From Anaerostipes rhamnosivorans (GTDB lineage Bacteria > Bacillota > Clostridia > Lachnospirales > Lachnospiraceae), in contig NZ_CP040058.1 in the NCBI RefSeq assembly GCF_005280655.1, positions 2,084,001 through 2,148,000 on the forward strand: a stretch of 64,000 nt of DNA. The letters are read 5' to 3'. Every line of letters begins with the position of its first letter. Positions within the stretch are counted from its first letter, which is position 1. Made by a program: the position numbers and the translations under genes. Below are positions 4,606-45,334 of the stretch, piece by piece. Below the pieces are notes generated by a model. The model made no database searches. It saw nothing but the letters and a program-made list of their open reading frames with translations, and was not told the origin of the DNA.

Positions 4606-4733
4606 CATTCGGCTCTTAGGTAGTGTCTGCTGGATAAGGATGACAGCGGAACAGAAGGCACCACTACGATAGTTTTTCTCTATTATCGGAAGGAGGCCTT
4701 TCCAGAGCCGACTGGAGATAATGGAGAAAAACT
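4606..4733 (-). repeat. R1 intergenic repeat, copy 1 (module B deleted)
   Basis: The reverse complement matches the repeat at 45150-45334 almost throughout: the same long imperfect hairpin (module A, 4660-4732, core GGCCTCCTTCC) and the same linker (GTCATCCTTATCCAG, then GACACTAC). It then jumps straight to CTAAGAGCCGAA, so about 32 bases including the left arm of module B are missing. It fills the space between the aldolase operon terminator and the holA stop codon, and its end lies within about 5 bases of that stop. Confidence 0.85.
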
Positions 4734-4735
4734 CA

Positions 4736-5713
4736 TTATCTGCTGAACTCAACCAGCAAAAGTTCCACTCCGATCCGGTCTCCTATCTTTCCAGTCTTAA
4801 TCCCCTCGTCAGTGGCCGCGCATTTCTTTATCATCGTATACAGTTCTTCCTTTTGAAACAGACGGACCTGCTGTTTTAGCTTTCCTGCCACAAAAGGCGG
4901 TACTTTTAATTCCTTTGCCATCTCACTCTGGGATTTTCCGGCCGCGGCAAGAGACTGGGTCTGTAACAACTGGTTACACTGTCTTACTAAAAGGGCAAGA
5001 ATACCGAACGGTGATTCTTTTAATTCAATCAAATCATAGTAGAGCTTTAATACAGTGTCCCTCTGCTTCTTCGCAATAGCCTCCAGCATGACAAAGATCT
5101 GATTGGTCGTCTGGGAGGTGGTAAGGGCTTCCAGATCCGCAGCAGTTATGACTTCCCGGCCCCGGGTATAGTCGATCAGCTTTACGATCTCATTTTTTAT
5201 GGTAAACATATCATGCCCCGTCTTATAAAGAAAAAGCTGAAGATCCTTCTGGGTCATTTTCCTGCCTTCCTTAGCAAGCATCTGGGCAATCCATAGAACC
5301 AGTTCTTTTTCCTTCGGCGTCTCAAAGGCTACTGCACACCCCTCTTTGTTGATGTACTTATAGATCTTGGATCTTTTGTCTGCCTCATCCTCTATGATCA
5401 GAAGAATGGTAGACTCAGGGATATCCTTCAGCGCTTTTAAAAAATCTTCATTGCTCTTTTTCCCAAGTTCCGTCTGATCCAGCACGATAAGACGGTGGTC
5501 ATTAAAAAACGGCATGGTCTGCATAAGCTCCAGGATTTCCGGAAGATCTGCCTTTTTCCCCTCAAAATAAGAATAATTCATCGTATCTTCCGCGGGAATC
5601 AGAGCTTTTTTTAATCTGTCTCTCGTCTGGGCAAGCAGATACTTTTCTTTTCCATAAAACAGATAAAGATTCTGATAATTTTGTTCTTTTATATGTTCCA
5701 ATACTCTTTTCAT
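4736..5713 (-). CDS. holA: DNA polymerase III delta subunit
   Basis: About 325 residues, the expected length. The N-terminal region (YLFYGKEKYLL, MQTMPFFNDHRLIVLD, LLIIEDEADKRSKIYKYI) and the C-terminal helical domain (SPFGILALLVRQCNQLLQ) match HolA, which opens the beta clamp within the clamp-loader complex. I chose ATG at 5713; a GTG at 5719 is also possible and would overlap the LysR stop by 4 bases (GTGA). It is the last gene of a three-gene leftward group with a LysR regulator and a nucleotidyltransferase, a linkage that probably only reflects transcription. Confidence 0.92.
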   Translation of the reverse strand: MKRVLEHIKEQNYQNLYLFYGKEKYLLAQTRDRLKKALIPAEDTMNYSYFEGKKADLPEILELMQTMPFFNDHRLIVLDQTELGKKSNEDFLKALKDIPESTILLIIEDEADKRSKIYKYINKEGCAVAFETPKEKELVLWIAQMLAKEGRKMTQKDLQLFLYKTGHDMFTIKNEIVKLIDYTRGREVITAADLEALTTSQTTNQIFVMLEAIAKKQRDTVLKLYYDLIELKESPFGILALLVRQCNQLLQTQSLAAAGKSQSEMAKELKVPPFVAGKLKQQVRLFQKEELYTMIKKCAATDEGIKTGKIGDRIGVELLLVEFSR

Positions 5714-5715
5714 GG

Positions 5716-6624
5716 TCACAGTCTCTCTCTTCCGTTATATTCAATACACAATGCCGTAAGCTCCGCGAGCATGGCCTGCCCTTCATCCTCTTTCCTGAAA
5801 GCCAGATAAAGAGTCCTCTCATTCTGCTCGAGATCTAAATAAAAGATCAGGAGGTTTCCTTTTTTTGCTTCCTCCTCCACAGCTTTCAGAGGCATGACAG
5901 CGATTCCCATCCCCATGCTCACCGACCGCTTCATAATCTCTTTGTCGTGGATCTTTGCCGCCACATGCAGAGTCTTTAAGTCGATGCCGTGTTCTTCTAA
6001 AAAGCGGTCCTCATCTTCCTCCGTGTCATCGGTCAGTTCCCTTAAGATAAACGGTTCCCTTAGGAGGCCCTCCAGGGTATATCCATTTTCCAGCAGGTTC
6101 CGATACCTCTCACGGTTGGGGGCGATCACCACCTGCTGGTCACAGCCGTACGGAATGAAGGTAAGCTCCGGCACATCTTCGTGCCTCCCCAGAAATCCAA
6201 GATCCGCTTCTTTTGTAAGGAGCATCTCCACCGTCTTTGCACTGTTCTTCTGAATCAGGGCAATATCTGTATCTCCATGCAGTTTTTTGAACTTCTCTAA
6301 AATGTCCGGCAGAACATACTGGAGGGCAACAGAATCCCCTGCCAGCACAAGGGATGTCTTCTCATCCCCGGAACGAATAAACTCTTTATATGCTTCATTC
6401 CTTAAATCCAGCATCTTTTTGGCATATCCGTATAGCTTTTCTCCCTCTTCTGTAACCTCCACATGCTTTGTTGTCCGGTCAAACAGCCTGCAGGATAGTT
6501 CCTGCTCCAAAGACACCACATGGGCACTGACCGTAGGCTGGGACAGAAACATCTCTTTTGCGGCCTTAGAAAAGCTGTGATGCTGCACTACATTTACAAA
6601 TGCCTCTAGCTGTCGAAACTCCAT
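5716..6624 (-). CDS. LysR-family transcriptional regulator
   Basis: 302 residues. The N-terminal winged helix-turn-helix is clear: MEFRQLEAFVNVVQHHSFSK, then AAKEMFLSQPTVSAHV at 21-36. A periplasmic-binding-like effector domain follows from about residue 90. It lies 4 bp downstream of the MobA/MocA-like gene and overlaps the holA start. LysR regulators of this type beside MocA-like nucleotidyltransferases occur in molybdenum-hydroxylase or selenium-linked clusters of Clostridia. That link is an association only, because no hydroxylase gene is present in this window. Confidence 0.9.
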   Translation of the reverse strand: MEFRQLEAFVNVVQHHSFSKAAKEMFLSQPTVSAHVVSLEQELSCRLFDRTTKHVEVTEEGEKLYGYAKKMLDLRNEAYKEFIRSGDEKTSLVLAGDSVALQYVLPDILEKFKKLHGDTDIALIQKNSAKTVEMLLTKEADLGFLGRHEDVPELTFIPYGCDQQVVIAPNRERYRNLLENGYTLEGLLREPFILRELTDDTEEDEDRFLEEHGIDLKTLHVAAKIHDKEIMKRSVSMGMGIAVMPLKAVEEEAKKGNLLIFYLDLEQNERTLYLAFRKEDEGQAMLAELTALCIEYNGRERL

Positions 6625-6628
6625 GTCT

Positions 6629-7246
6629 TTACCTCACTCTGCCGTAATATTCCATCAGTCTCACATAATCCTGGGGCGTGTCCGTATCCAGCATACAGCC
6701 CGGGTCATCCTCCACAGTCACCAGAACCGTGGATTCTAAAAATTGCAGGAGCGCCCGCCTCAGCCCTCCACTTCCCCGGAACTTTAAAAGATAAGGAAAA
6801 CACTCACAGGAGATCACCGGAGGATGGATTCTCCTCCCCTCTTTGACAGGAATCACAACCAAAGGCGCCGCTGCCTCAAACCAGGCAAAAAGCGTCTCAT
6901 AAGTTCTCCCGGAGATCATAGGCATATCTCCTGGCACGACCACAGCGCCGTCAAACGACAGGGCCTGTGCCAAACCTAGCTGCACTGACTGCATCATATC
7001 ACCGTGCTCAAAATTCTGATTATATACAAACTCTACTCTTTCAAGACCGGAAAGCTCCTCTTCAATCTCTTTGCTCCGGCATCCAACAACCACTATGACC
7101 TTACAAACCCCGGCATCCAGAAGACTTACTACCGTGGCCCTGATAATGGTGCTGTCTCCAAATGGGAGCAGCGGCTTAAAGGCTCCCATCCTCCGGGAAA
7201 GACCTGCACATGGGACGATGCCGGCAAATTTCTTCTTTTTATTCAT
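6629..7246 (-). CDS. MobA/MocA-like nucleotidyltransferase
   Basis: 205 residues of the NTP_transf_3 type. Signature GIVPCAGLSRRMG (9-21) then KPLLPFG forms the nucleotide-binding loop. VVVPGDMP (about 97-104) carries the metal-binding Asp, and GRRIHPPVIS resembles the GRRGHP loop of molybdopterin cytidylyltransferase (MocA). The family attaches CMP or GMP to molybdopterin in the cytosol. The CDP-binding tail DTDTPQDY is present. First gene of the MocA-like/LysR/holA group. A different nucleotidyltransferase role is possible, as no molybdenum enzyme is nearby. Confidence 0.8.
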   Translation of the reverse strand: MNKKKKFAGIVPCAGLSRRMGAFKPLLPFGDSTIIRATVVSLLDAGVCKVIVVVGCRSKEIEEELSGLERVEFVYNQNFEHGDMMQSVQLGLAQALSFDGAVVVPGDMPMISGRTYETLFAWFEAAAPLVVIPVKEGRRIHPPVISCECFPYLLKFRGSGGLRRALLQFLESTVLVTVEDDPGCMLDTDTPQDYVRLMEYYGRVR

Positions 7247-7332
7247 TTTCTTATTATATCAATTTTAGAACGTAAAAACCAGAACATCCTGCTCTAAATG
7301 AACAGGTATTATACGGATCAGACATTTATAAA

Positions 7333-7641
7333 TCAATAAAATAATTTTGTATACTCGGTCTGTGTATCCGCTATATGATAAATATATACAGTTTTATCAA
7401 TCTTGCGGTAAATCGCCACCTGTTTTTCGCAGATGATCATACGGTATCCCCGTTCATTCAGCCATTTATCCGGGGTCAAAGACCCCGAATCAGGATATGA
7501 TTCCAGCCTTTCAATCGTATTCAAAATATGATCGCTGACTTTTAACGCTGTTCTAACATCAAATTGTAGTATATACCAATCTTCGATACGTTTTAAATCT
7601 TCCCACGCTGTTGGAAGAATCCCAACTTTATAATGCATCAA
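7333..7641 (-). CDS. RelE/ParE-superfamily toxin
   Basis: 102 residues with the compact RelE/ParE fold pattern: ILPTAWEDLKRIEDWY at the N-terminus, then a middle basic strand (RGYRMIICEKQVAIYRKI) and a short C-terminal strand VYIYHIAD. Its start overlaps the end of the Phd-type antitoxin gene by 14 bp, the usual translational coupling. Members are either mRNA interferases (RelE) or gyrase poisons (ParE); the motifs do not decide between them. Confidence 0.85.
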   Translation of the reverse strand: MMHYKVGILPTAWEDLKRIEDWYILQFDVRTALKVSDHILNTIERLESYPDSGSLTPDKWLNERGYRMIICEKQVAIYRKIDKTVYIYHIADTQTEYTKLFY

Positions 7642-7894
7642 TCCGATCCCTCAATCTCTTTCTCGCCTCTGTGACGCTGAGTGTTTCTGCGCCGCTTAGA
7701 CGTTCCAGTTCCGCCTGCAATACTTTTTCCCGAAGATCCAGCATCTGTTCTCTCTTCTCAAAGGCATCAATATTCATAAATACTCCATCACCTTCGCCGT
7801 TTCGTGTAATATAAATAGGTTCTTTTGTTTCTTTTGCCATATCAGAAATAGATGAATAATCATTTCTCAATGCAGCGGATGCTTTTATAATCAT
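7628..7894 (-). CDS. Phd/YefM-type antitoxin
   Basis: 88 residues. The N-terminal DNA-binding part has IIKASAALRNDYSSISDMA and the strand EPIYITRNGEGDGVFM, typical of Phd/YefM. The acidic, helical C-terminus would wrap the toxin. Its SD (GGAGGTG at 7907-7901) sits inside a 48-bp perfect palindrome, so autoregulation at that site is very likely by analogy with the family. Confidence 0.88.
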   Translation of the reverse strand: MIIKASAALRNDYSSISDMAKETKEPIYITRNGEGDGVFMNIDAFEKREQMLDLREKVLQAELERLSGAETLSVTEARKRLRDRIDAL

Positions 7895-7903
7895 TTTTCA
7901 CAC

Positions 7904-7951
7904 CTCCATATCTATAATTTGATATAATTATATCAAATTATAGATATGGAG
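7904..7951. promoter_or_regulatory. 48-bp perfect palindrome at the toxin-antitoxin promoter
   Basis: Two 24-base arms meet with no spacer: CTCCATATCTATAATTTG reads identically on both strands through to CAAATTATAGATATGGAG. It contains TATAAT hexamers in both orientations and overlaps the antitoxin SD. It is the likely operator for the antitoxin or the toxin-antitoxin complex, and as RNA it could fold into a hairpin next to the ribosome-binding site. Confidence 0.8.
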
Positions 7952-7992
7952 TAAATAAAAACACTTTTTCTTCGTATTCACAAAAATTTATA

Positions 7993-10248
7993 TCATCTGT
8001 ATGAATGTAAATACCACCGCTTTCTTTCCATAGAAAACCACAGCATTCCTTGTTTGGATGTTTCGTAAATCCTGCACTCAGAAGCTTTCAGTCGTTCTAT
8101 GGTCTCCCTGTGCGGATGCCCATACCGGTTGTTTTTCCCAGCAGACACCACAGCAATTCCAGGTTTTAACTGTCTAAGCAGTGCTTCCCCCGTCCCATTC
8201 CTGGATCCATGGTGCCCTGCCTTTAAAACATCTGCCGGTTCCACTCCCTCCTGCACCAAAAGCTCCTCCCCTTCCTTCTCCAAATCACCGGTCAGGAGAG
8301 CGGAGAATTGTCCCACTTCCAGCCGGAACACCAGGGATGCCGCATTTTTCTCCAGTTTGTCATCCGGTTTTGGATGCAGGCATTCCATTGACCAGTCCTG
8401 CCCGGAAATTTTACTGCCCCGTGCCAGATACGCTACAGGGACATGATTCTTCTGCGCCAGTTTCTCCATCTCCTTATAAGCCTGATCCTTTGTTACATCC
8501 GGCAGATAAAGCCGTTTGATGATCCCCATGGACAGAAGCTCCTGAATACCTGAATAGTGGTCCGAATCCAAGTGGGTGACCACAGCGGCACTGACGGCTT
8601 TGTAGCCCTGGGATTTTATGTAGGGAGCAATGAGGTACCGGCCCACATTCTTTTTGGAGGAGCTTCCCCCGTCCACCAGGATCATGTCACTGCGGTTCAG
8701 GGATAAGGCGATGCAGTCTCCCTGCCCCACGTCCAAAAAAGAAATTTTATCCGCTCTCTTTTGTACCCCTAAAACCAGAAAACAGGCTCCTGCCAAAAGA
8801 CAGGCATACTTCCAAAAAGGCTTTCCCTTAAGTCCCTGACAGACAAAAAACAGCTCCAGATAAAATACAATGATCCAAAGAAGTGGAGGCTTTCCTAAAA
8901 CAATATTTGAAAAAGGAAGACATCCAGCCAACCGGGTTGCAGAAAGAGTCACAGAAAACAGCATAGAAGCGGGCACAGAAAATAAAAAGAACGGAAAAAA
9001 GGAACTGAGAAAACCAGCAGTGAATCCTGCCGTTACCAGTGGCAACATAAGAAAATTAAAAAGAAAAGAGTATAGATAACACTCATACTGGAAATATAAA
9101 AGAACCGGTGCCATAATCACCTGAATTACACAACAGAAGACAAGACGGCTTTTCTGTTTTTCTAACAATGTCTTCTTTTTCCCTCCGCCGAATATCTCCC
9201 CATAGATCCCCGCAGAAATGACTGCACCCATGGACATCAAAAAACCTGCGTCCGCACATCGAAACGGACACTCCAACAGCAGAACAATGCCCGCAACGCC
9301 TCCCGAGGAGAGCAGGTCATAGGAGCGTCCCAAAGCTTGGGATAAAAGAAAGATCAGAAACATCAAAAATGCCCTTTCAGAAGATCCAGACATACCCGTC
9401 ATGACACAGTAAGAAAACGCGAACAGCAGTCCGAAAGTCCCCGAAAACCAAAAGGGGAAACTGGCCTTTCTCAGCCTGCGCAAGATGCCTCTTCCGACCA
9501 GAGAAATATGCAGACCTGAAATTGCCAGAATATGAACAATGCCGCTTTCGGTGAATGCATCCTTGGTATCATCTGAGATTCCTGTCTTATCTCCCAGGAT
9601 CATAGCCTGTGAAACAGAAAGGATCTCATTTGTGTATTGAGAAGACAGGTTTTTAGACATTTGCTCCCGTAACGAAAACAGCACATTCTTCCATATGTTT
9701 TTCTCCTGCCCCACGATCTCCCGGTCCCTTGGAAACATGGTAAACTCGACATTCCTGGAAAGATAATAGACTCTCATATCGTTCTCCCCCAGATTTGTGG
9801 GGCCCTCGTGGGGCTTAAGCTCCCCTGATAAGGAAATCTTATTTCCGGAAAGCACCCCGTTAAAATCGTCGTCATATACCATAATATCCCCATCCAGATA
9901 AAGCTTTTGTTCAGGTAGAAAGAGATGAGAGACCAGCAGGTACTCCTTCGTTTTTGTCTTTCCCTTCCATTCAACCGTGCCCACTGCTTTGACCTGCCCT
10001 AGGCCTTCCAGTGCCTTTTCCTGTCCCCTGATCCTTTGGTCCTGGTAGGAAAACACAAAGCCTCCCAAAAAAAAGCCGATCAAGGCAGACAAAACAGCGC
10101 CTCTCATAAACCAGGTCCTGTTCTTAAAAAAGAGCACAAGGATCCCCGGAAAGAGAAGCGCGGCAAACACCATCCAGACGTTTTTACATGCTGTGAGTTC
10201 TCCAAGCCAACAGCCTGCAAACAACGCAAGAAATGGTCTATGATTCAT
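7993..10248 (-). CDS. comEC: ComEC/Rec2 DNA-uptake channel
   Basis: 751 residues, normal for full-length ComEC. Order: N-terminal membrane and soluble DUF4131-like region (1-200), the Competence domain with multiple membrane helices (about 200-490, containing the motif AISGLHISLVG), and a C-terminal metallo-beta-lactamase-like domain (about 510-751) with THLDSDHYSG and GHHGSRNGT. The family carries single-stranded DNA across the cytoplasmic membrane during transformation; the C-terminal domain is a putative nuclease. It starts 6 bp after the GerMN gene and is the last gene of the comEA-led operon. Confidence 0.95.
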   Translation of the reverse strand: MNHRPFLALFAGCWLGELTACKNVWMVFAALLFPGILVLFFKNRTWFMRGAVLSALIGFFLGGFVFSYQDQRIRGQEKALEGLGQVKAVGTVEWKGKTKTKEYLLVSHLFLPEQKLYLDGDIMVYDDDFNGVLSGNKISLSGELKPHEGPTNLGENDMRVYYLSRNVEFTMFPRDREIVGQEKNIWKNVLFSLREQMSKNLSSQYTNEILSVSQAMILGDKTGISDDTKDAFTESGIVHILAISGLHISLVGRGILRRLRKASFPFWFSGTFGLLFAFSYCVMTGMSGSSERAFLMFLIFLLSQALGRSYDLLSSGGVAGIVLLLECPFRCADAGFLMSMGAVISAGIYGEIFGGGKKKTLLEKQKSRLVFCCVIQVIMAPVLLYFQYECYLYSFLFNFLMLPLVTAGFTAGFLSSFFPFFLFSVPASMLFSVTLSATRLAGCLPFSNIVLGKPPLLWIIVFYLELFFVCQGLKGKPFWKYACLLAGACFLVLGVQKRADKISFLDVGQGDCIALSLNRSDMILVDGGSSSKKNVGRYLIAPYIKSQGYKAVSAAVVTHLDSDHYSGIQELLSMGIIKRLYLPDVTKDQAYKEMEKLAQKNHVPVAYLARGSKISGQDWSMECLHPKPDDKLEKNAASLVFRLEVGQFSALLTGDLEKEGEELLVQEGVEPADVLKAGHHGSRNGTGEALLRQLKPGIAVVSAGKNNRYGHPHRETIERLKASECRIYETSKQGMLWFSMERKRWYLHSYR

Positions 10249-10254
10249 TTAATT

Positions 10255-10791
10255 TTACTCCATCGGAAGTTCCCCGAACAGAAAGCTGTCACGGTTCAGA
10301 GCACCAATCAGTTTCCCGTCTGTATCTATGATCGGCCGGCCGGAAACAGTGAATTCCACATATCCGACTCCTTTCAGCTGCGTCAGCGTATAGACGATGG
10401 CAGCCTTGCAGATGACATCTTCATTCGGTTCTATCTTCTTATATCCTATAGAAAAATCAACATATGCGATATTGTTGGAAACCGTCACATTGCTGATGAC
10501 AATATTGTCTGGTATGGCAGTTTTATATTTGCTGCTTTTTTCGACCTTTTCCATCTGGTCCAAAAGCTCTTCTGCCCCGAGCTGGCTGTTCATATCGACA
10601 TCGATCTTTTTGTCTTTTTTAATCAGCTTTGTATAGCTTCTGTTTGTATAGTAAATCCCTGTCCCGCCTTTGGTCTTTGTGCTGTCATCTTCCTCTTTGG
10701 AACATCCCGCACAGAGAAGCAGCACACAGGTAAGGACAAAAAGGATACATATAGAAATCGTTCGTTTTTTTGTCACTGTATCCCTCCTCAT
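10255..10791 (-). CDS. GerMN-domain lipoprotein
   Basis: 178 residues. A signal peptide ends in a lipobox (LLCAGC), so it should be anchored on the outside of the membrane. The rest is one GerMN domain: NIVISNVTVSNNIAYVDFS, then VYTLTQLKGVGYVEFTVSG and a final LIGALNRDSFLFG. GerM-type proteins act in sporulation and germination, but single-GerMN lipoproteins also occur with histidine kinases. Its ATG overlaps the kinase stop by 4 bp (ATGA), suggesting a functional link with the two-component system. Confidence 0.88.
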   Translation of the reverse strand: MRRDTVTKKRTISICILFVLTCVLLLCAGCSKEEDDSTKTKGGTGIYYTNRSYTKLIKKDKKIDVDMNSQLGAEELLDQMEKVEKSSKYKTAIPDNIVISNVTVSNNIAYVDFSIGYKKIEPNEDVICKAAIVYTLTQLKGVGYVEFTVSGRPIIDTDGKLIGALNRDSFLFGELPME

Positions 10792-12188: not shown

Positions 12189-12216
12189 GCTCTTCAGGTA
12201 GGAAAATCTGTCCTTC

Positions 12217-12903: not shown

Positions 12904-12917
12904 ATTTTCACCTCAAA

Positions 12918-14027: not shown

Positions 14028-14029
14028 AA

Positions 14030-14077: not shown

Positions 14078-14087
14078 GTTTATTCAT

Positions 14088-15269: not shown

Positions 15270-15278
15270 AATTTCCTC

Positions 15279-20741: not shown

Positions 20742-20849
20742 CCCAACCCCCTAACTTTATTTCCAATACTTCGCTGACATCCATTCCTTTTTTAGATGAA
20801 AAAGAATCCCTCGTCGAAAGACATCCTCTGTCTTGTAGCAACATGCTCT

Positions 20850-20925
20850 AGCAGACATTACGTCCATTTTCTACATGATTGGAGTGAGGCATTCTAAGAG
20901 CCGAACGGAAATCATGTGGAAAATG
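20850..20925 (+). repeat. R1 intergenic repeat, copy 2 (module B)
   Basis: Palindromic module B: left arm CATTTTCTACATGATT (20865-20880), loop about 29 bases, right arm AATCATGTGGAAAATG (20910-20925). Nearly identical to 45265-45334. One pair differs in a compensated way: T-A here, G-C there. The right arm ends immediately before the topB stop codon (TGA, 20928-20926). Sequence left of about 20850 does not match module A. Confidence 0.88.
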
Positions 20926-23046
20926 TCATAGTTTTAACTTTGCGAATGCATCAGCAAATGCGTTATTGATCGGCTGTTCTGCTTCGGCCTGCTGCTTTTT
21001 CAAATAGCGGTTCACTTCTTTTTTGCTGACACCCGCACCGTCTTTTTTCTTGCGCTCCTTAAAAGCACTGAGCTTCTCCTTGTGGCCGCAGACACAGACA
21101 AACTTCTGTGCCTCCCCTTCGCCTACCATCTCCATTTTCTTGTGACAGACCGGACAGCGGGCATTGGTAGTCCTTGAAAGTGTTTTCCTGCATCCGCACT
21201 CCCGGTCCTGGCAGACTAAGAAGGTCCCGTGCTTTCCTTTCACCTTCAGCATAAACTTCCCGCATTCCGGGCACTTATGGCGGGTAAGATTTTCATGGCA
21301 AAACGTCCCCTGGGCATGTTTGATCTCTTCGATGATCTGCCTTGTATATCCACTGATCTCTCCCATGAACTTCCTGTCATCTTCCCTACCCTCGGCGATG
21401 GCTGTGAGCCTTTGCTCCCACTGCGCCGTCAGCTCCGCTTTCCTAAGGTCCTCCGGCACCAGCTCTAACAGCTGCTTAGCCTTTCCAGTGATCACCACAT
21501 CATTGCCATTCTTTTCAAGAAGAAAGCTGGAAAACAGCTTCTCTATAATATCGGCACGGGTGGCTACCGTTCCAAGCCCCTGTTTTTCCATCCTGGAGAT
21601 CAGAGTTCCTTCTGTATATCTGGCTGGAGGATTGGTGGTCCCCTCCGTGATCTTCATAGAGTCCACCGTGACCTGTGTTCCTTCCCTGAGCATGTTAAGC
21701 TTATCCTGAGGCAGAGCTTCCCCTGTGCTTTCCTCTTCCTGATATAGTTCCTTCCATCCGGCCTTGACCATAACGGTGCCTTTAGCCTCAAATATTTCCC
21801 CGTGAATAGTCCCAGAAATAGAAGTCTGCTCGTACTCACATGCCGGTGATAACACGGCAAGGAAACGTTTCACAACCAGATCATAGATTTTGCGCTCGTC
21901 AAAACTCATATCCGTCAGAAATACCGACTGCTCCGTTGGAATGATGGCATGATGATCCGTCACTTTGCTGTCGTTAATAAAAGAAGCCGAACGATTGACC
22001 TTTTTTGACAAAAGTTTTGCTGTCCACTTTTTATATGGACCTACGCTGATTGCATTCAGCCGCTCTTTTATCGTATCTGCCATATCGCTGCTCAGGTAAC
22101 GAGAGTCGGTCCTAGGATAAGTAAGGACCTTGTGGTGTTCATACAAACTCTGCATCAGATTCAGGGTCTGTTTGGCTGAAAATCCAAACCTCTTGTTGGC
22201 ATCTGTCTGAAGGTCAGTAAGGTTGTAAAGCGATGGAGCATGGGTTTTCTTCGGTTTCTTAGAAATCTTTCCAATCAGAAGAGTTTCTCCCCCTGCCGTT
22301 TTCTTTATTCTGTCTATTTTCTCTCTGTCAAAGCTCTGGCTGCTGCCTGACATTCTGTCCTTCCATGTAAATGTCATTCCCAGTACAAACGCCTTGATCC
22401 CGTAAAACTTCTTCGGCTTAAAGGTACGGATCTCCTCTTCCCGTTTTGCGATCATGGCGAGAGTCGGTGTCTGGACTCTCCCGCAAGACAGCTGTGCGTT
22501 ATATTTACAGGTCAGCGCTCTGGTGGCGTTGATCCCCACAAGCCAGTCCGCCTCTGCCCTTGCCACTGCCGCATGGTAAAGGTTCTCATACTCTTTTCCA
22601 GGCCTCAAATGTGCAAAACCTTCCCGTATGGCTTTATCCGTCACAGAGGAAATCCAAAGTCTCTGTACAGGCTTTTGATTTCCTGCCTTTTTAAGGATCC
22701 AGCGGGCAACCAACTCTCCTTCCCGTCCTGCATCTGTGGCGATGATAATATCCGACACGTCATTTCTGAAGATCAGTTTTTTAACAGATTGGTACTGCTT
22801 TGATGTCTTACCGATCACCACGAGCTTCCACTGTTTAGGCATCATAGGAAGCGTTTCCATGCTCCACTGCTTGTATTGGTTCCCGTACTGCTCCGGATCT
22901 GCCAAGGTCACCAAATGCCCCAGCGCCCATGTCACAATATATTTCTCACCCTCCATAAAAGAAGAACCTTTTTGCTTACACCCCAAAACCCTCGCAATAT
23001 CTCTTGCCACCGAAGGTTTTTCTGCGATCACTAAATGTTTTTTCAA
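20926..23046 (-). CDS. topB: DNA topoisomerase III (type IA)
   Basis: 706 residues. Toprim domain at the N-terminus (LVIAEKPSVARDIARVLG, then ATDAGREGELVARWI). Catalytic tyrosine in VLTYPRTDSRYL near residue 315. The C-terminus has two zinc-ribbon-like segments (CPECGKFMLK, CPVCHKKMEM). Relaxes negative supercoils and decatenates DNA. Clostridial TopB enzymes of this type occur both on the chromosome and on conjugative elements; I see no conjugation genes beside it, so a chromosomal copy is likely. Its stop codon lies at the edge of repeat R1. Confidence 0.95.
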   Translation of the reverse strand: MKKHLVIAEKPSVARDIARVLGCKQKGSSFMEGEKYIVTWALGHLVTLADPEQYGNQYKQWSMETLPMMPKQWKLVVIGKTSKQYQSVKKLIFRNDVSDIIIATDAGREGELVARWILKKAGNQKPVQRLWISSVTDKAIREGFAHLRPGKEYENLYHAAVARAEADWLVGINATRALTCKYNAQLSCGRVQTPTLAMIAKREEEIRTFKPKKFYGIKAFVLGMTFTWKDRMSGSSQSFDREKIDRIKKTAGGETLLIGKISKKPKKTHAPSLYNLTDLQTDANKRFGFSAKQTLNLMQSLYEHHKVLTYPRTDSRYLSSDMADTIKERLNAISVGPYKKWTAKLLSKKVNRSASFINDSKVTDHHAIIPTEQSVFLTDMSFDERKIYDLVVKRFLAVLSPACEYEQTSISGTIHGEIFEAKGTVMVKAGWKELYQEEESTGEALPQDKLNMLREGTQVTVDSMKITEGTTNPPARYTEGTLISRMEKQGLGTVATRADIIEKLFSSFLLEKNGNDVVITGKAKQLLELVPEDLRKAELTAQWEQRLTAIAEGREDDRKFMGEISGYTRQIIEEIKHAQGTFCHENLTRHKCPECGKFMLKVKGKHGTFLVCQDRECGCRKTLSRTTNARCPVCHKKMEMVGEGEAQKFVCVCGHKEKLSAFKERKKKDGAGVSKKEVNRYLKKQQAEAEQPINNAFADAFAKLKL

Positions 23047-36741: not shown

Positions 36742-36768
36742 ATCACTCTACCTCCTAAATTCATCTAT

Positions 36769-36807: not shown

Positions 36808-36823
36808 TTTATGTCAAATTGTC

Positions 36824-37906: not shown

Positions 37907-37922
37907 AGAATTCTCCTCTTCC

Positions 37923-38240
37923 CTATAATATCACCGATATCATCTCCACGCCCAAAGCTGCCCCGCAGCTTAAACAGGCCACAGTGACAATGTTCATCTC
38001 CCTGTATGCCAAGATCACAGCAACAATAAACCCTATAACGGATGACCCTAAGCTTTTTGTAGCTGAAAACACCGCCGGTATGACCATTGCTGCCAATACA
38101 GCATATGGTACATAGAAAAGAAACGATCGGAAAAACTGATTTGTTATCTTTTTTTGTATGGCAGCCAGAGGGATCATTCTTACAAGATATGTAGTCAACG
38201 CCATGGCAATGATATACAAAAGCAATCTCTCAAGACTCAT
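37923..38240 (-). CDS. azlD: AzlD, branched-chain amino-acid exporter small subunit
   Basis: 105 residues from the ATG at 38240; this start overlaps the azlC stop in an ATGA and gives [10 protein letters not shown]. About four hydrophobic helices; the N-terminal [14 protein letters not shown] motif is typical. Works with AzlC in export of branched-chain amino acids or analogues. Its place ahead of leuB/ilv genes fits a product-relief valve. Confidence 0.88.
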
Positions 38241-38944: not shown

Positions 38945-39202
38945 TTTCTTCTCCTGTTACTATTTCATTGATTGTTCTGCTTCTATAATATGGAGGAAGA
39001 AAAATCCCCCTGAAGCGAACTTATATAATAGGATACCATATTTCATTAGAGATTGAAAATAGTTTTTTCATTGAATATGCGATTCCCTGGCCCTTTTTGC
39101 TGTTTTGGAAGGAATTATGGATGAACAGGCCGGATTTTGGCTTTTGAAACAATAAGAATGAAAAAAGAGGAGATCCATAATCTTCCATCAAGCATATCAC
39201 TG
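38945..39202. other. intergenic region with possible decayed coding fragment
   Basis: AT-rich gap between divergent azlC and the first amidase. On the + strand a frame without start codon runs from about 38989 to 39145 (ends ...WKELWMNRPDFGF). It could be the remnant of a divergent regulator gene or chance. Nothing else is supported here. Confidence 0.25.
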
Positions 39203-39231
39203 TTGTTTCAGCCAGAAAAATATATTATAAT
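39203..39231 (+). promoter_or_regulatory. promoter of the first amidase gene
   Basis: -35 TTGTTT (39203-39208), 17-base spacer, -10 TATAAT (39226-39231). The gene's SD (AAAAGGGGA) and ATG follow at 39270. Confidence 0.6.
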
Positions 39232-39269
39232 GGCAATAACAGAATAAAAAAGGGAAAAGGGGAATACAT

Positions 39270-40727
39270 ATGAATCGTAAATCACTTCTTTGCTTTGGTC
39301 TTGCAGCCATGATGCTCGTCTCAAACATCCATCCTGCATCCGCTATCAGTGCTGGGACCAAGTTTAAGGTACAATACACCCATAACAAAAAGACTTATAC
39401 AAAAAAAGCACTAAACGCCAGATACAACAATACTATCATCAAGACAAACATGCCTGGCTTTCTGGACGGGTCTACCTCTATGTACTCTGCCTACTGGATC
39501 TTTGGCAGATGCAAATCATTGGGTACTTCTTATAAGTATACAAGTAAAACAAAAAAAATTACTATTAAAAAAGGCAGCAAGACCGTTGTCATGACTTTGG
39601 ACAGTAAAAAAGCCACCTTAAACGGCAAATCCTTTACTCTTCCGGCTGCCCCCAGAAAAGTCCGTTATGTGGCGAAAAAGAAAAATTATATCATGGTGCC
39701 AGGGCAGACCGTTGCCGGAAAACTGGGCATCTCATACACATGGAATAACCGGCTGTTATCTGGCGTGATGAAAGTTTCATCTTCTTCATCCTCTTCGTCC
39801 AACTCTTCGTCTCCTTCAACTCCGACTACGGGACAAGTAGTTGCACCTAAGACTAAGATCACGGCAGGCAGCAGTAATTACTCCGTGCGGATAAAAAAGC
39901 CGTCAGGATTATCTTCCGCTGCCGTTACTTCAGAGGATGATTATTGGAATAAACGGCTAATATTAAATATCAATGGAAATTATAAAACTCATTTTTCTTC
40001 TTCATCCAACCGGAATATTAAGGACAGCCTGTCCTATTCTGTATCCTATACCGGAGGAAAGACAAAAATCTATCTGACTACGAGTTCGATCAAAGGTTTC
40101 AGTATCACACAGGATTCCAGTTATATCTATGTGAAGTACGCAGCGCCAAAAACCATGTTCTCGAGAGTGATCGTCGTGGATGCCGGGCACGGCGGTAGCG
40201 ACAGTGGAGCCGTAGGAAATGGACTTTATGAAAAGAATATGACTCTGTCTATTGTCCTGAAAATGAAATATTACTTTGATCGAAACTCTAATTACAAAGT
40301 TTATTATACAAGACTTTCTGACTGGTATCCCGGAATTAAAGAAAGATATACGTTTTCTAATAACATTCATCCAGATAGGTTTGTTAGTGTTCATATTAAT
40401 TCTTTTAAAAAGAAAAGCGCTAATGGAACGGAGACATTATATAATCCTAAGGGGAAAAACTCCTCCTCTCCTTATAGTATAAGTTGTAAAAATTTTGCAT
40501 CTAGTGTTCACAAAAAAGTTTTAGCTGCAACTAAATTTACTGACCGCAAACTTACGCAACGTATTCCTGGCAGTGGAGCAGGAGTAGGAGTTTTATCTTA
40601 TTCAAATACCGCTGCTACATTGGGAGAAGTCGGTTTTATAACAAATTCTTCTGATGCTGCTTTTATGAAAAACAATTACACTAAGATTGGTAAAGCATTT
40701 TATGATGGAATCTTAGCTTCCTTTTAA
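39270..40727 (+). CDS. secreted N-acetylmuramoyl-L-alanine amidase (Amidase_3), paralogue 1
   Basis: 485 residues. Signal peptide to about residue 25; a stalk/copper-amine-oxidase-N-like domain (about 28-165, with STSMYSAYWIF and VVMTLDSKKATLNGK); a Ser/Thr linker; a beta domain (about 190-300); and Amidase_3 (about 305-485). Zinc ligands are visible: VDAGHGG, then E in LYEKN, H in VSVHINS, and catalytic E in LGEVGFI. Cleaves the peptide side chain from peptidoglycan. Codon use shifts to much more A/T from about 40260 to the stop, unlike the first part and unlike paralogue 2. Confidence 0.92.
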   Translation: MNRKSLLCFGLAAMMLVSNIHPASAISAGTKFKVQYTHNKKTYTKKALNARYNNTIIKTNMPGFLDGSTSMYSAYWIFGRCKSLGTSYKYTSKTKKITIKKGSKTVVMTLDSKKATLNGKSFTLPAAPRKVRYVAKKKNYIMVPGQTVAGKLGISYTWNNRLLSGVMKVSSSSSSSSNSSSPSTPTTGQVVAPKTKITAGSSNYSVRIKKPSGLSSAAVTSEDDYWNKRLILNINGNYKTHFSSSSNRNIKDSLSYSVSYTGGKTKIYLTTSSIKGFSITQDSSYIYVKYAAPKTMFSRVIVVDAGHGGSDSGAVGNGLYEKNMTLSIVLKMKYYFDRNSNYKVYYTRLSDWYPGIKERYTFSNNIHPDRFVSVHINSFKKKSANGTETLYNPKGKNSSSPYSISCKNFASSVHKKVLAATKFTDRKLTQRIPGSGAGVGVLSYSNTAATLGEVGFITNSSDAAFMKNNYTKIGKAFYDGILASF

Positions 40728-40765
40728 CAGAACAGTATTCTCATAATTAATATAGAAGTAATAGA

Positions 40766-40826
40766 AAATCCCAGATTGTTTTATTTGGCAGACGCCTCAG
40801 AATTTAAAACAATTATGGGATTTTTT
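40766..40826 (+). terminator. terminator between the two amidases
   Basis: AAATCCCA-g-ATTGTTTTA pairs with TAAAACAAT-t-ATGGGATTTTTT; large loop. T-run follows on the + strand. Confidence 0.85.
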
Positions 40827-40886
40827 ATATGATTATTGCGTTTTTATTACGAATATGTTACAATCTACCCGAAAGGACGGGAAAGT

Positions 40887-42359
40887 ATGCATAAATTAAA
40901 AAAATCTATCGCTTATTTATCACTTGTGATGTTAACAGTCACTACGATTCCTGCATCCAGTGTTAAAGCTGCTTCTGTTCCAAAAGCAGGCAGTTATTAT
41001 ACATTAAAAATTGCGGGTAAAAAACAAAAAAAGAAATGCCGGAATGTCAAAGTCAATGGCAAGACTGTAAAGACATATGCTCCGGGATTTGAAAGAGCTA
41101 ACACTTCCATGTATTCAGCCTACTGGCTGTTTAAGAAGCAAAAAAGTCTTGGAGTGTCCTACAGTTATTCATCTAAAACAAGAAAAGTTACTTTGAAGCG
41201 TGGTAGTACATCTGTTGTCATGACTCTGGACAGCATGTATGCATATGTAAATGGCAAGAAAACAAAGATGCCCACACCAGCAAGAAAAGTATATTCTTAT
41301 GCCAAAAAGAAGAATTATATCTATGTCCCGGGAGCTTTCTGTGCCACAAAACTTGGACACAGTTATAAATGGAGTTCCTCCCAGAAGAGCGGCCTGATAA
41401 CAACCAAAAGCCAGGCTTCCTCTAATTCAGGGAGCAGCTCTTCATCAGGCACCTCAACCGTGACTCCCAGTACAAGGATCACAGCATCTGCTTCCAACTA
41501 CAGCGTGAGGATAAAGAAACCCAGCGGACTTTCATCTTCCGCCATCACTACATCGGATGATTACGGAAACCGAAGACTGATCATAAAGGTAAAAGGTAAT
41601 TACAAAACCCACTTCAGTTCCAGCTCTAACCGATACATAAAACCGGACAAGTACTTCCGCTCCTATACAGTCACCTACAGCGGAGGCTACACAAATATCT
41701 ATATCCGGCCGAGAAAAGATGTCATCAAAGCCTATGCGGTTTCACAGACATCCAGCTATATCTATATAAAATATGATTCGCCGAAGAAAATATATAATCG
41801 TATCGTAGTATTGGATGCGGGACACGGTGGATCAGATTCAGGTGCTACTGGAAATGGACTTAGAGAAAAAGATATGACCCTAAATATTGTAAAGTCAGCA
41901 AAATCATATTTTGACAAAACTGGTTCTTACAAAGTGTATTACACGAGGCTATCTGACCGGAGCCTCATTTTGAGTGAACGTTCAGACCTTGCTAATAATG
42001 TGGGTGCCGACCGCTTCATCAGTGTACATATCAACTCTGCTTCTGCATCCGCTCATGGAACAGAGACCTTATACAACTCAAAAGGTTATAAGTCCTCCTC
42101 AGGGCTTACCAGCTATAACTGGTCCAATAAGATTCACGGTTATGTGAGACCCGCCACAGGCTTTACGAACAGGGGACTTAAAAACCGGACCGGCCTGGCT
42201 GTATTAAGGAATACGAAAACAGCTTCCAGTCTGACAGAGATCGGATTCATCTCCAATAAGAAAGAAGCTAAGAAAATGAAAAGCAATACGGGCACTTATG
42301 GAAAAGCTGTCTACAACGCCATTGTAAATTCATTTTCCACCTACCCAAGCAAACGATAA
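40887..42359 (+). CDS. secreted N-acetylmuramoyl-L-alanine amidase (Amidase_3), paralogue 2
   Basis: 490 residues from the ATG at 40887 (SD AAAGGACGGGAAAG); the in-frame extension to 40836 covers the likely promoter. Same domain order as paralogue 1: signal peptide ending near SVKAAS, stalk domain with STMYSAYWLF-like and VVMTLDSMYAYVNGK, Ser linker, beta domain with the shared NYSVRIKKPSGLSS, and Amidase_3 with DAGHGG, LREKD, VHINS and TEIGFI. Clearly a tandem duplication. Its catalytic part keeps the GC-richer codon use of the region. Confidence 0.93.
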   Translation: MHKLKKSIAYLSLVMLTVTTIPASSVKAASVPKAGSYYTLKIAGKKQKKKCRNVKVNGKTVKTYAPGFERANTSMYSAYWLFKKQKSLGVSYSYSSKTRKVTLKRGSTSVVMTLDSMYAYVNGKKTKMPTPARKVYSYAKKKNYIYVPGAFCATKLGHSYKWSSSQKSGLITTKSQASSNSGSSSSSGTSTVTPSTRITASASNYSVRIKKPSGLSSSAITTSDDYGNRRLIIKVKGNYKTHFSSSSNRYIKPDKYFRSYTVTYSGGYTNIYIRPRKDVIKAYAVSQTSSYIYIKYDSPKKIYNRIVVLDAGHGGSDSGATGNGLREKDMTLNIVKSAKSYFDKTGSYKVYYTRLSDRSLILSERSDLANNVGADRFISVHINSASASAHGTETLYNSKGYKSSSGLTSYNWSNKIHGYVRPATGFTNRGLKNRTGLAVLRNTKTASSLTEIGFISNKKEAKKMKSNTGTYGKAVYNAIVNSFSTYPSKR

Positions 42360-42374
42360 CATCATGTGATAATG

Positions 42375-42417
42375 GAAAGACCGGAACAATAGTACCGAAA
42401 TTGTTCCGGTCTTTTCT
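42375..42417. terminator. terminator after amidase paralogue 2
   Basis: GAAAGACCGGAACAAT pairs with ATTGTTCCGGTCTTTTC; loop AGTACCGAA. Strong stem with T-run; also usable by the convergent LysM gene. Confidence 0.88.
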
Positions 42418-42459
42418 TTATGTCAGCTAGTGTCTAGTCTCAACAGGACAAGAAGATGG

Positions 42460-42759
42460 TCACTTATAGTATGGAATCACAAGATACATCCCCTCTTTGA
42501 TCTCACCATCATAAATATGGTTTGCCTCACAGACTTCCTCTACATACTCATGAACTGAGCTGTATTCTTCCGATATATTTTTCTTGGCGATAGACCACAG
42601 GCTGTCACCTCTCTTAATCTGAATGCTGGTAAAGTACTTCTCCCTGCCGTCGGCGGCACCGGCCACCTGCCGGCTCTCTGATATAACGGCTGCAGCGATG
42701 CCCAGTACCGTAACGATAAATAGAACAGTAATCAAAACTCTTATCTTCAGTGTTTTCAT
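42460..42759 (-). CDS. LysM-domain cell-division suppressor, YneA-like
   Basis: 99 residues from the ATG at 42759, which has an SD (AGGAGG) and yields a basic N-terminus plus one membrane helix; the in-frame extension to 42891 crosses the LexA boxes. One LysM domain (about 50-99: IQIKRGDSLWSIAKKN to GMYLVIPYYK). Divergent from lexA, as yneA is in Bacillus, and with the same operator region. YneA blocks division during the SOS response; the assignment here rests on architecture and context. Confidence 0.82.
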   Translation of the reverse strand: MKTLKIRVLITVLFIVTVLGIAAAVISESRQVAGAADGREKYFTSIQIKRGDSLWSIAKKNISEEYSSVHEYVEEVCEANHIYDGEIKEGMYLVIPYYK

Positions 42760-42774
42760 AACGCTTCCTCCTAT

Positions 42775-42860
42775 CGAACATTTGTTTATATTACTATTAT
42801 ATAGAACGCACGTTTGTTTGTCAACTGTTTTGTCGAAAATCTGTTCGGGAACACTTGTTT
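42775..42860. promoter_or_regulatory. three LexA (SOS) boxes between yneA-like gene and lexA
   Basis: Gram-positive LexA pattern GAACRNRYGTTY: GAACGCACGTTT (42804-42815) is a full match; GAACATTTGTTT (42776-42787) and GAACACTTGTTT (42849-42860) each have one mismatch. Their position between divergent genes implies LexA autoregulation and SOS induction of the LysM protein. Confidence 0.85.
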
Positions 42861-42911
42861 CAATCTGCAATATATGGTAAGATAATACCAAGAAAATAAA
42901 GGAGGCACATT

Positions 42912-43529
42912 ATGAGCAAACAAAAGCTGAGCCCAAAACAAGAACAAATCTTAGAATATATAAAATCTCAGATACTGGAGAAGGGTTATCCGCCCGCAGT
43001 CCGTGAGATCTGTGCCGCTGTCAGCCTGAAGTCCACCTCTTCCGTTCATTCTCATTTGGAGTCCTTAGAACGCAAGGGCTATATCCGCAGAGACCCTACA
43101 AAACCGCGCGCCATCGAGATCATTGATGATGACTTTCAGCTCACACGCCGTGAGGTTGTCAACATCCCTATCGTTGGAACCGTCACCGCCGGAGAACCGA
43201 TCATTGCCACGGAGAATATCGAGGACTATTTCCCGATGCTGCCTGAGTTCATCGGTTCTAAGAATACCTTTATGCTCCATGTCAAAGGAGACAGCATGAT
43301 CAATATCGGAATCTATGACGGAGATATGGTGATTGTGGAAGAGACCCCATCGGCCGAGAATAATGATATTGTAGTTGCCCTTATAGAGGACTCGGCTACC
43401 GTAAAACGTTTCTTTAAAGAAGACGGACATTACCGGTTACAGCCGGAAAATGACTTTATGGATCCAATCATTGTAGACGAAGTTTCCATTCTCGGCAAAG
43501 TCATCGGCCTGTACCGCAGCATGTCATAA
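42912..43529 (+). CDS. lexA: LexA repressor, SOS regulator
   Basis: 205 residues. Winged-helix DNA-binding domain (1-70) with [24 protein letters not shown]. Self-cleavage site A93-G94 in VGTVTAGEP; catalytic dyad S128 (GDSM) and K165 (ATVKRF). RecA-stimulated cleavage removes repression. SD AAAGGAGG just upstream. Confidence 0.97.
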
Positions 43530-43545
43530 TCATACATATCTATGG

Positions 43546-43593
43546 AATAGAAAAAGCTGATTTGGAGTAAGTTCCAAATCAGCTTTTTCTATT
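43546..43593. terminator. bidirectional terminator lexA/rsfS
   Basis: Near-perfect 21-base stem AATAGAAAAAGCTGATTTGGA paired with its complement, loop GTAAGT. Serves lexA and the convergent rsfS end. Confidence 0.9.
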
Positions 43594-43607
43594 CTGTACA
43601 TATTAAT

Positions 43608-43961
43608 TTATCCTTCTGCTTCCATGGGCACTTCCACCCCATCCTTCCAGATCCTTTCCAGATCATAAAACAGACGGTTTTCCTGGTCAAAGACATGGAT
43701 GACAATATCGCCAAAGTCGATCAGCACCCAGGTACCGTTCTGATACCCTTCCATCTGTTTCATCTCATATCCCGCCTTAAACAGGGCGTCCTGTACATTA
43801 TCTACGATCGCCTGCACCTGGTTTTTATTCTTACCGTTTGCAATGATAAAATAATCGGCCACCACAGAAATCTTCTGGATATCAATCACTTTGATCTCCT
43901 CTGCCAATTTTTCTTCCAACGCATGATAAGCGATGTTTGCCATCTCTAAAGACTGGTTCAT
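43608..43961 (-). CDS. rsfS: ribosomal silencing factor
   Basis: 117 residues, the usual size. Motifs KVIDIQKISVVADYFIIANGKNK and GTWVLIDFGDIVIHVFDQENRLFYDLERIW are family-specific. Binds ribosomal protein L14 and blocks subunit joining in starvation. Its start overlaps the yqeK stop by 4 bp. Last gene of the nadD-yqeK-rsfS unit. Confidence 0.96.
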   Translation of the reverse strand: MNQSLEMANIAYHALEEKLAEEIKVIDIQKISVVADYFIIANGKNKNQVQAIVDNVQDALFKAGYEMKQMEGYQNGTWVLIDFGDIVIHVFDQENRLFYDLERIWKDGVEVPMEAEG

Positions 43962-44530
43962 GTGCGGTCTTCCTCCTTATAATATTGATAGGTTTCCTTT
44001 GTTTTAGGATCAATGGTCTGGTTCCTGCTCTCAAGATACTGCATCGTGCTTTCCAGTATCCCCAAAAGACATTGGTCCATATCTGAAAAAGCCAGCTGTC
44101 TCACACTGGAAAGACCCGGTATCTCTTTTCTTCCCGGCTCAATATAATCTGCGATAAATACGATCTTCTCCAGGAGCGTCATTCCTGGTTTTCCGGTGGT
44201 ATGGCACTCGATTGCAGATGCGATTTCCTCATCCTCATTTCCGTAGCAATCTCTGGCGATATACGGTGCCAGGGCTGAATGGAGCAGCTGCGGGCTTTCC
44301 CTGCGCTCTTTTGTCAGTGGAATGCCATATCTTTGGCAGAGCTCTTTCTGCCGCTCCAACGGATATCCTTTGGCACAATCGTGAAGCATGCCTGCCATAA
44401 ACGCTTTCTGGATATCTGCGCCAAATGCCATCGCCATTGCGGCAGCTGTATAGGCCACCCCGACAGTATGGTTATAACGGCTTTCCTTCAAGTTTTCTGA
44501 AAGCTTTTTTTTGATCTCATTCAGTTCCAT
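43958..44530 (-). CDS. yqeK: HD-domain bis(5'-nucleosyl)-tetraphosphatase, YqeK
   Basis: 190 residues from the ATG at 44530 (an ATG at 44539 is an alternative). HD motif in AGMLHDCAKGY, metal-binding histidines in YNHTVGVAYTAAAMA and LLHSALAP, and a later ECHTTG. Hydrolyses Ap4A. Overlaps the end of nadD by 14 bp, the conserved Firmicute order. Confidence 0.93.
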   Translation of the reverse strand: MELNEIKKKLSENLKESRYNHTVGVAYTAAAMAMAFGADIQKAFMAGMLHDCAKGYPLERQKELCQRYGIPLTKERRESPQLLHSALAPYIARDCYGNEDEEIASAIECHTTGKPGMTLLEKIVFIADYIEPGRKEIPGLSSVRQLAFSDMDQCLLGILESTMQYLESRNQTIDPKTKETYQYYKEEDRT

Positions 44531-45122
44531 ACAAATCATTTCTTTCTATATAAAGTCTGACTTCCTCCGGCACGAAATAACGGATGCTCTGTCCCCTAGC
44601 CGCTCTTTTCCTGATCTCGTTGGAGGAGATCTCTAAGTCCGGGCTGTCCAGATGGCATATACTGCACTGATACTTATCTTGAATATACTCAATCTGTGCG
44701 TCCAGGGCGCTCCTAGAGTCATTTCTGGATGCCACCAGAATGGTTGCCATGGATAAAATCTGTTCTGTATCCTTCCAGGACTCAATCTGATACAAGGAGT
44801 CTGCACCCATAATAAAATAGTATTCTGCATCCGGATGCATCTGAGTGAGCTTTCTTAGAGTGTCCACTGTATAAGTATATCCCTCCCTGTAGAGTTCAAT
44901 GTCCGAAAACTCAAAGCCAGGATGGCTTGCGATCGCCAGCTTGACCATGTTCACACGGTCCTCAATCTCCACATTCCTAGATATTTTTTTGTATGCCGGA
45001 TTTTTGGTAGGGATAATCAATACCTTGTCCAAGCCAAAATCCTCCAGGGCAGTCTGACCAAGGATCAGATGTCCGTGGTGGATCGGGTTAAACGTCCCTC
45101 CCAGAATTCCAATCTTCTTCAT
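44517..45122 (-). CDS. nadD: nicotinate-nucleotide adenylyltransferase
   Basis: 201 residues. Nucleotidyltransferase motif GILGGTFNPIHHGHL (5-19), YYFIMGADS, and the C-terminal ISSNEIRKRAARG version of ISSTxIR. Makes nicotinate adenine dinucleotide in NAD synthesis. Followed by yqeK and rsfS; separated upstream from yhbY by an R1 repeat that interrupts an otherwise conserved operon. Confidence 0.96.
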   Translation of the reverse strand: MKKIGILGGTFNPIHHGHLILGQTALEDFGLDKVLIIPTKNPAYKKISRNVEIEDRVNMVKLAIASHPGFEFSDIELYREGYTYTVDTLRKLTQMHPDAEYYFIMGADSLYQIESWKDTEQILSMATILVASRNDSRSALDAQIEYIQDKYQCSICHLDSPDLEISSNEIRKRAARGQSIRYFVPEEVRLYIERNDLYGTE

Positions 45123-45149
45123 AATCCCTCCGAATCTAGTAAATCATCT

Positions 45150-45334
45150 GCGATAGTTTTTCTCCATTATCTCCAGTCGGCTCTGGAAAGGCCTCCTTCC
45201 GACAATGAAGAAAAACTATCGTAGGATGGCACCTTCTGTTTAACTGTCATCCTTATCCAGTAGACACTACGTCCATGTTCTACATGATTGGAGTGAGGCA
45301 TTCTAAGAGCTGAACGGAAATCATGTGGAACATG
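45150..45334 (+). repeat. R1 intergenic repeat, copy 3 (complete)
   Basis: Reference copy. Module A: outer stem CGATAGTTTTTCT (45151-45163) / AGAAAAACTATCG (45209-45221), inner GTCGG/CCGAC and GGAA/TTCC. Linker with GTCATCCTTATCCAG. Module B: CATGTTCTACATGATT (45274-45289) / AATCATGTGGAACATG (45319-45334). The right arm ends immediately before the yhbY stop codon (TGA, 45337-45335), as copy 2 does at topB. Confidence 0.9.

Follow-up and report, generated by a model that had tools for sequence, protein, structure and literature searches.

The 64,000-nucleotide stretch analyzed here (the window) comes from the closed genome of Anaerostipes rhamnosivorans (NZ_CP040058.1, positions 2,084,001 to 2,148,000) and carries a structured repeat, R1, at three intergenic sites flanked by ordinary genes (holA, topB, nadD and yhbY among nine proteins in an NCBIfam scan). 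We found that the folded shape of R1 is kept by compensatory change across a large set of genomic copies, and we give about an even chance to the reading that it is a non-autonomous mobile element built like a repetitive extragenic palindrome (REP)/bacterial interspersed mosaic element (BIME) doublet, with two outward-facing hairpins separated by a linker.

Layout and anatomy of R1

A covariance model built from copies in this genome (the host) detects four hairpins in the window at 81.7–88 bits, three on the plus strand (4667–4738, 20860–20931 and 45269–45340) and one on the minus strand (45150–45221); its remaining matches there are opposite-strand reads of the same four (21–27 bits) and one at 16 bits. 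The full element measures about 185 bp and consists of two related hairpins of about 63 nt, A and B, in inverted orientation with a linker of about 55 bp between them (Table 1). Such a two-module element had originally been predicted at all three sites, and related hairpins are indeed present at each of them, but both modules occur only at site 3. The first copy had been described as truncated in module B, which stands: about 12 nt of it are left beside hairpin A and the linker, and this copy is additionally joined to part of a dispersed repeat of another family, family 2. Site 2, taken earlier for an A plus B copy, lacks module A and is a solo hairpin B with a linker tail. The T-A versus G-C difference claimed between the stems of module B at sites 2 and 3 is real. 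At every site the strand bearing the purine-rich core folds far more strongly than shuffled versions of it (z −6.7 and −3.0 at site 3, −5.3 at site 1 and −4.4 at site 2).

Table 1. Parts of R1 and fused sequence at the three sites, in window coordinates
Site	Feature	Coordinates	Strand	Remarks
1	Hairpin A, type A1	4671–4733	+	Purine strand on +; CAT next
1	Linker	4620–4670	+	Begins on the B side, CTACGAT end at the foot of hairpin A; 4620–4733 matches site 3
1	Remnant of hairpin B, about 12 nt	4608–4619	−	By-eye comparison with the B sequence
1	Fused fragment of family 2 (ATACC..GGTAT)	4577–4612		89% over 36 bp, E-value 1e-8
2	Solo hairpin B	20865–20925	+	TCAT at 20926–20929 contains the stop codon of the topB open reading frame (20926–23046, −)
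2	Linker tail	20846–20864	+	Ends TTACGTC (foot tag); by eye
3	Hairpin A, type A1	45152–45220	−	Purine strand on −; stem lengthened to 20 bp
3	Linker	45221–45273	+	Small central hairpin; foot tags CGTAG and CTACG face each other; fold from the 98% identical copy L003
3	Hairpin B	45274–45334	+	TCAT at 45335–45338 contains the stop codon of the yhbY open reading frame (45335–45628, −)

The hairpins share a common plan, in which a foot tag and two bases lead into a stem arm of 16–17 bp, a 29-nt purine-rich core and the opposite arm, usually followed by (T)CAT. Starting and ending in GGA, the core holds two base pairs followed by a GA/GA tandem, then three further pairs and a loop of 9 nt; it is conserved across copies, and the stems are variable. 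A-type hairpins fall into types A1 and A2, the latter with the GA/GA tandem moved by one pair and an extra pair on the inner side at unchanged length (read by eye from the alignment). Counted over the three genomes that carry R1 (see below), the foot tag TACG is present in 64 of the 102 B and 18 of the 49 A1 hairpins, and the 52 A2 hairpins have TTCG in 27 and TACG in 12 cases; the foot reads TTACGTC in most B hairpins and TACGAT or TTCGAA in the A types. Of 181 hairpin contexts drawn from the three carriers, 124 have CAT at its expected position. Within the element, A and B run in opposite directions with their purine strands outward, and the linker folds into a small hairpin of its own in the two copies that were folded. 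Stem types are exchangeable, and some copies have B swapped for a rod of about 185 nt with the foot and tail unchanged; the longest rods reach about 275 nt by way of an insert resembling a different repeat. The two ends of the element have core and shape in common but not their outer sequence (AGTTATT.. versus CATTTTC..), with agreement limited to the last bases (ATGA, read inward).

Compensatory change in the hairpin stems

In 77 distinct host hairpins, standard pairs fill 94.7% of the 1,694 cells that represent 22 stem pairs. Uncompensated stem changes in other copies had been named beforehand as a possible refutation of the claim that pairing, and not just sequence, is conserved; instead, both-sided changes occur at 16 of the 22 pairs and in 333 cells, compared with 126 in shuffles and 4–29 in slid controls, and the covariation score is 0.529 against 0.189 shuffled and at most 0.081 slid, cell counts being inflated by relatedness and three hairpin types accounting for much of the signal. 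Within single types, two Watson-Crick states differing on both sides are seen at 12 of 17 stem pairs in A1, 5 of 17 in A2 and 8 of 16 in B, counted over the hairpins of all three carriers with several states resting on one sequence. The folded shape of R1 is thus kept by compensatory change and is under selection. It is this genome-wide set that carries the proof, as the single compensated pair seen in the window would by itself prove little.

Wobble pairs bear on the strand that is recognized. Among 139 hairpins chosen by their core and Watson-Crick pairs, a choice neutral between the two wobbles, the purine strand has G-T in 132 cells and A-C in 32 (53:11 in A1, 14:3 in A2 and 65:18 in B), and stem columns with at least five wobble cells number six for G-T and none for A-C (counted from the table). 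Since the complement would read these G-T cells as A-C, the purine strand seems to be the relevant one for both A and B. As these are oppositely directed in one element, no single transcript explains both biases, whereas single-stranded DNA of either strand can. Judged from the sequences, the bias on both hairpins seems to speak for single-stranded DNA, or for units acting alone, and against one long RNA.

Copies, placement and empty sites

The expectation that three copies in the window imply many in the genome was borne out, against the other refutation named beforehand, a lack of further copies: the host, G000, has at least 150 hairpins (weakest match at E-value 2e-5), a lower bound in that all 150 scored candidates matched and there were 2,781 candidates at first look. 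They group into 97 sites, with one model hairpin at 55, two at 34 and three or four at 8. Close relatives contain further hairpins, at least 101 in G009 and at least 53 in G004, so that three of 11 Anaerostipes genomes are carriers; the other eight gave no hairpin match with 150 candidates scored in each. When 61 genomes, one of them the host, were searched at the DNA level, the same three carriers came up; they are mutually closest at one coding locus (84% between host and G004, 83% between host and G009 and 76% or less between host and the others). None of 298 other sampled genomes of the family matched with 16 candidates scored per genome under strict filters, which is a weak negative, and the exact core pattern hit six stretches among genome contigs, all from A. 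hominis BG01, in a collection that may exclude the host and genomes close to it. A phage or plasmid origin was rejected as neither collection yielded a match; the one IMG/VR contig with the core pattern has it between an integrase-side region and a putative rsmH frame, that is, in host flanking DNA.

The doublet architecture recurs throughout the host. Of the 45 neighboring hairpin pairs with a distance below 200 bp, 34 point outward, and 31 of these have a spacing of 114–121 bp; four further pairs stand tail to tail, 66 bp apart, with CAT in common. R1 is predominantly intergenic, with gene context taken from longest-frame or open-frame calls rather than annotation: the first hairpin lies inside an open frame of at least 150 codons at 11 of 96 sites, compared with 81 of 93 and 85 of 96 for positions 600 bases to either side. 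Many elements adjoin gene ends. In a set of 147 host hairpins, not all of which have TGA or enough flank, 101 outer edges carry TGA, and the stop of an open frame of at least 100 codons falls exactly there in 20, 1–20 nt away in 5, 21–60 nt in 12 and 61–190 nt in 14, with none in 50. At topB and yhbY, whose stop codons lie inside the R1 edge, both relatives have TAA at about the same place (by eye). Insertion at the last codons, tolerated as the edge supplies a stop, explains the stops at R1 edges, and a target preference for gene ends could also play a part.

G004 and G009 both clearly lack R1 at two of the three sites in the window; for the remaining site the right flank alone is alignable, in G009, and no hairpin was found in the stretches examined. 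Site pairs between G004 and G009 were read for 10 of 13 sites (all except L117, L069 and L227) and for five more with aligned flanks, and no partner was found for the queries L107, L297 and L299. Four pairs have readable junctions around AT (L104/L258, L108/L259, L284/L291 and L287/L295). In L104/L258 the empty site has the length of both flanks joined at AT, with two substitutions, and in L108/L259 the whole insert, a family 2 repeat included, lies between TCAT, which is present in the empty site, and ACTC. Two seemingly empty sites retain part of an arm (L260 and L291), and L284/L291 and L066/L260 may be deletions leaving such a part rather than true empty sites. Beyond the four junctions, the pairs are mosaic, hold different elements or have diverged: a rod is common to both genomes at one site with few changes (L213/L289), and other common sites have mosaics or swapped modules within an unchanged outer boundary (L109/L118, L064/L106/L124 and L120/L261). 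Intact copies are flanked by AT, and in the present data a duplicated AT and one owned by the element look the same. Leaving out 26 edges that abut family 2 and 11 tandem ones, the base after CAT in 87 edges is A in 59, G in 19, T in 8 and C in 1.

The 47 distinct full-length copies of the three carriers include host copies up to 98.4% (A1) and 99.5% (A2) identical, the host differing from its relatives by 16–17% at the coding locus. The nearest neighbor is in the same genome for 29 of 33 host copies, 7 of 11 in G009 and none of the 3 in G004.

Family 2, the companion at site 1, is a dispersed palindromic repeat of about 62 bp (ATACC..CGTGC/GCACG..GGTAT). It abuts many R1 copies at the AT edge, lies at site 1 and in the flanks of L003, L006 and L029, occurs in tandem in L251 and L286 and was not found in the non-carrier loci examined.

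Proposed mobilization and alternative readings

R1 has equivalents of the parts of a REP, namely a foot tag, a mismatch core, a CAT tail and inverted doublets. In the literature consulted (PMC3733652, PMC3116915, PMC2817692, PMC8266576 and PMC6006769), REPs, BIMEs and the related REPINs are likewise intergenic hairpins present in many copies, with an unpaired foot tag on the 5′ side and, in the E. coli type, conserved stem mismatches, arranged in inverted pairs with a linker and recognized on one strand (PMC8266576, PMC3116915, PMC2817692). TnpA-REP is reported to bind the folded REP strand and not the complement; the GTAG foot and, in E. coli, also the conserved mismatches matter, and cleavage is at CT, once also at CA, beside the hairpin (PMC8266576). 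As described there, the REP foot is GTAG, whereas TACG or TTCG is commonest in R1, and REPs are tied to a REP-associated tyrosine transposase (RAYT) gene flanked by repeats, whereas two of the three R1 carriers have no match to a Y1 transposase. The CGTC-tagged REPs treated in one survey resemble R1 in the foot of most B hairpins, in being mostly outward dimers and in that the survey reports no dedicated transposase for them, but have stems of 8–9 bp and loops of 4–5 nt (PMC3733652). The A-type feet of R1 make CGTC not general. The main text of this survey has no words beginning with “Firmicutes” or “Clostrid”, and no such repeats in Anaerostipes were recognized among the matches listed in a literature search. 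IS200/IS605 ends and their palindrome-bearing derivatives share a subterminal hairpin, a foot tetranucleotide and a cut-site-like tail (PMC8266576). R1 differs from them in that its hairpins are inverted rather than on one strand, and no TnpA with such ends was found. BOX elements of Streptococcus pneumoniae are also intergenic and modular, with exchangeable hairpin parts; R1, likened to them by description and not by sequence, is an outward pair of one hairpin family.

We posit that each R1 hairpin would be read as folded single-stranded DNA, the form in which it is probably recognized, by a nuclease recognizing the non-canonical core and the foot tag. Such a nuclease, either lost or of a kind not recognized here, would cut at (T)CAT beside the stem; the two hairpins would be excised together with the DNA between them and inserted into a target that contains AT, and later recombination and local deletion would shuffle and shorten the arrays. 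The original prediction of a selected structure or a REP-like or miniature inverted-repeat transposable element (MITE) is supported, REP-like being the better half of the guess. As G004 and G009 have no match to PF01797 (Y1 transposase, the RAYT fold) and the IS200-type copies in G000 have other ends, we would say that R1 works like a REP rather than that it is one.

Several observations weigh against the REP-like reading. The REP-type endonuclease that had originally been suggested as something to look for did not appear: PF01797 has no match at E-value ≤ 0.01 in G009 (one contig) or G004 (a draft of about 90 contigs), and the Y1 matches in the host are three IS200-type copies only, with ends unrelated to R1. 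The same profile matches 6 of 8 non-carrier Anaerostipes genomes and 6 of 14 control genomes, E. coli among them. No gene-bearing, autonomous copy was present among the sites read, which comprise the open-frame lists of L122, L123, L124, L125 and L126 and 39 of the 55 single-hairpin sites, the latter read by eye over about 330 bp inward. This survey, which was not exhaustive and made no profile search on the frames, turned up host genes or the long rod, and we recognized no transposase. The R1 hairpin, at 63 nt and with some rods of about 185–275 nt, exceeds the 20–50 nt given for a REP unit in the sources consulted. Some copies are as alike across species (up to 97.8% between G000 and G004 and 98.4% between G004 and G009) as within them, which a purely within-species burst does not predict. 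Nor are R1 sites depleted between divergent genes, where 23 of 96 lie according to crude frame calls. There is no leading- or lagging-strand preference (16 versus 15 full elements and 66 versus 81 hairpins, with terminus and origin suggested by GC skew, which over the stretches examined changes sign near 1.78 Mb in G000:C1 and near the record ends), where an IS200/IS605-type mechanism might leave a bias. Finally, the wobble cells are non-independent, 40 of the 65 in B coming from one column.

The idea that the IS200 copies act on R1 in trans was rejected on a by-eye comparison of the ends. One of their transposase frames (L063) is broken by TGA.

More tentatively, and at well short of even probability, R1 could represent a hairpin system that acts through single strands as REPs do but independently of RAYTs. 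In it, interchangeable stems that covary would surround an invariant GGA/GA mismatch core, and a kind of nuclease not yet tied to repeats would move the element, often to gene ends, where the TGA of the element becomes the stop codon. RAYTs are believed to be required for REP mobility; a large constrained doublet family in genomes with no recognizable RAYT would point either to a further enzyme able to read folded single-stranded DNA or to the way in which such families outlive their enzyme, and the many natural hairpin variants with exchangeable stems offer a ready map of what the reader requires.

Among the alternatives, an unlikely one, though it survives best, is that R1 is a classical MITE, derived from a DDE-type insertion sequence, whose ends happen to be long hairpins and which inserts at AT with a two-base target duplication. 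It is consistent with the AT that borders intact copies on either side and also occurs at some empty sites, with the size of about 185 bp and with the similar position of family 2 repeats between AT dinucleotides (L067/L251). DDE transposases read the terminal sequence as a duplex; the ends of R1, agreeing in structure and core but not in outer sequence, provide no terminal inverted repeat in sequence, and recognition as a duplex would not lead one to expect compensatory stem change. The mix of bases that follow CAT (see above) also makes a TA duplication a poor fit. No DDE transposase was seen in the open-frame lists examined, those of L122–L126 included, and no genome-wide search for DDE families was made. 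Rather improbable is the absence of any dedicated movement now, with R1 as an old family from a lost transposase kept by recombination, gene conversion and replication slippage. It would account for the mosaic and module-swapped copies at common sites, the rod shared by G004 and G009, the remnants of single arms and the 55 of 97 sites with a single model hairpin, but not for near-identical host copies at unrelated sites or for sites empty in both close relatives. Least probable is a structured RNA (a regulatory element, 3′ end protector or small RNA) copied many times for its usefulness when transcribed: strong RNA folds on both strands of two copies (z −4.4 to −9.2), the compensatory changes and the many gene ends at the element edge speak for it, but A and B have the same wobble bias on opposite strands, solo hairpins between co-directional genes show no clear orientation preference (12 with and 16 against), closely related species differ in their sites, R1 in the window has no Rfam match at gathering score, and five loci taken to E-value 5 gave only weak overlaps on R1, by Thr_leader (25 bits, gathering 55) and rli40 (21 bits, gathering 100).

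The structured HEARO/IscB-IsrB elements are described as following ATGA or GTGA, and the ATGA edge of R1 suggested them as a mobilizer. This candidate was rejected: HEARO has no gathering-score match in the window and is absent from the Rfam matches up to E-value 5 in five loci, and RRXRR is above its cut-off only in the non-carrier G006. Each carrier has one weak RRXRR match, within a frame of 1427 aa (L168, L169 and L170), and these are exactly the three carriers of the 11 genomes; by its size this frame is perhaps Cas9, and its restriction to the carriers is likely due to shared ancestry.

The insert of the longest R1 rods is a third repeat (..GAGCACTTAGTGAAG..), found in the rpsH-rplF gap of one carrier and two non-carriers (L128:720–850; L214, L215 and L224). 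Separately, four CRISPR-like direct repeats about 66 bp apart (L128:17–243), below the Rfam gathering score, lie a few hundred bases from an R1 copy.

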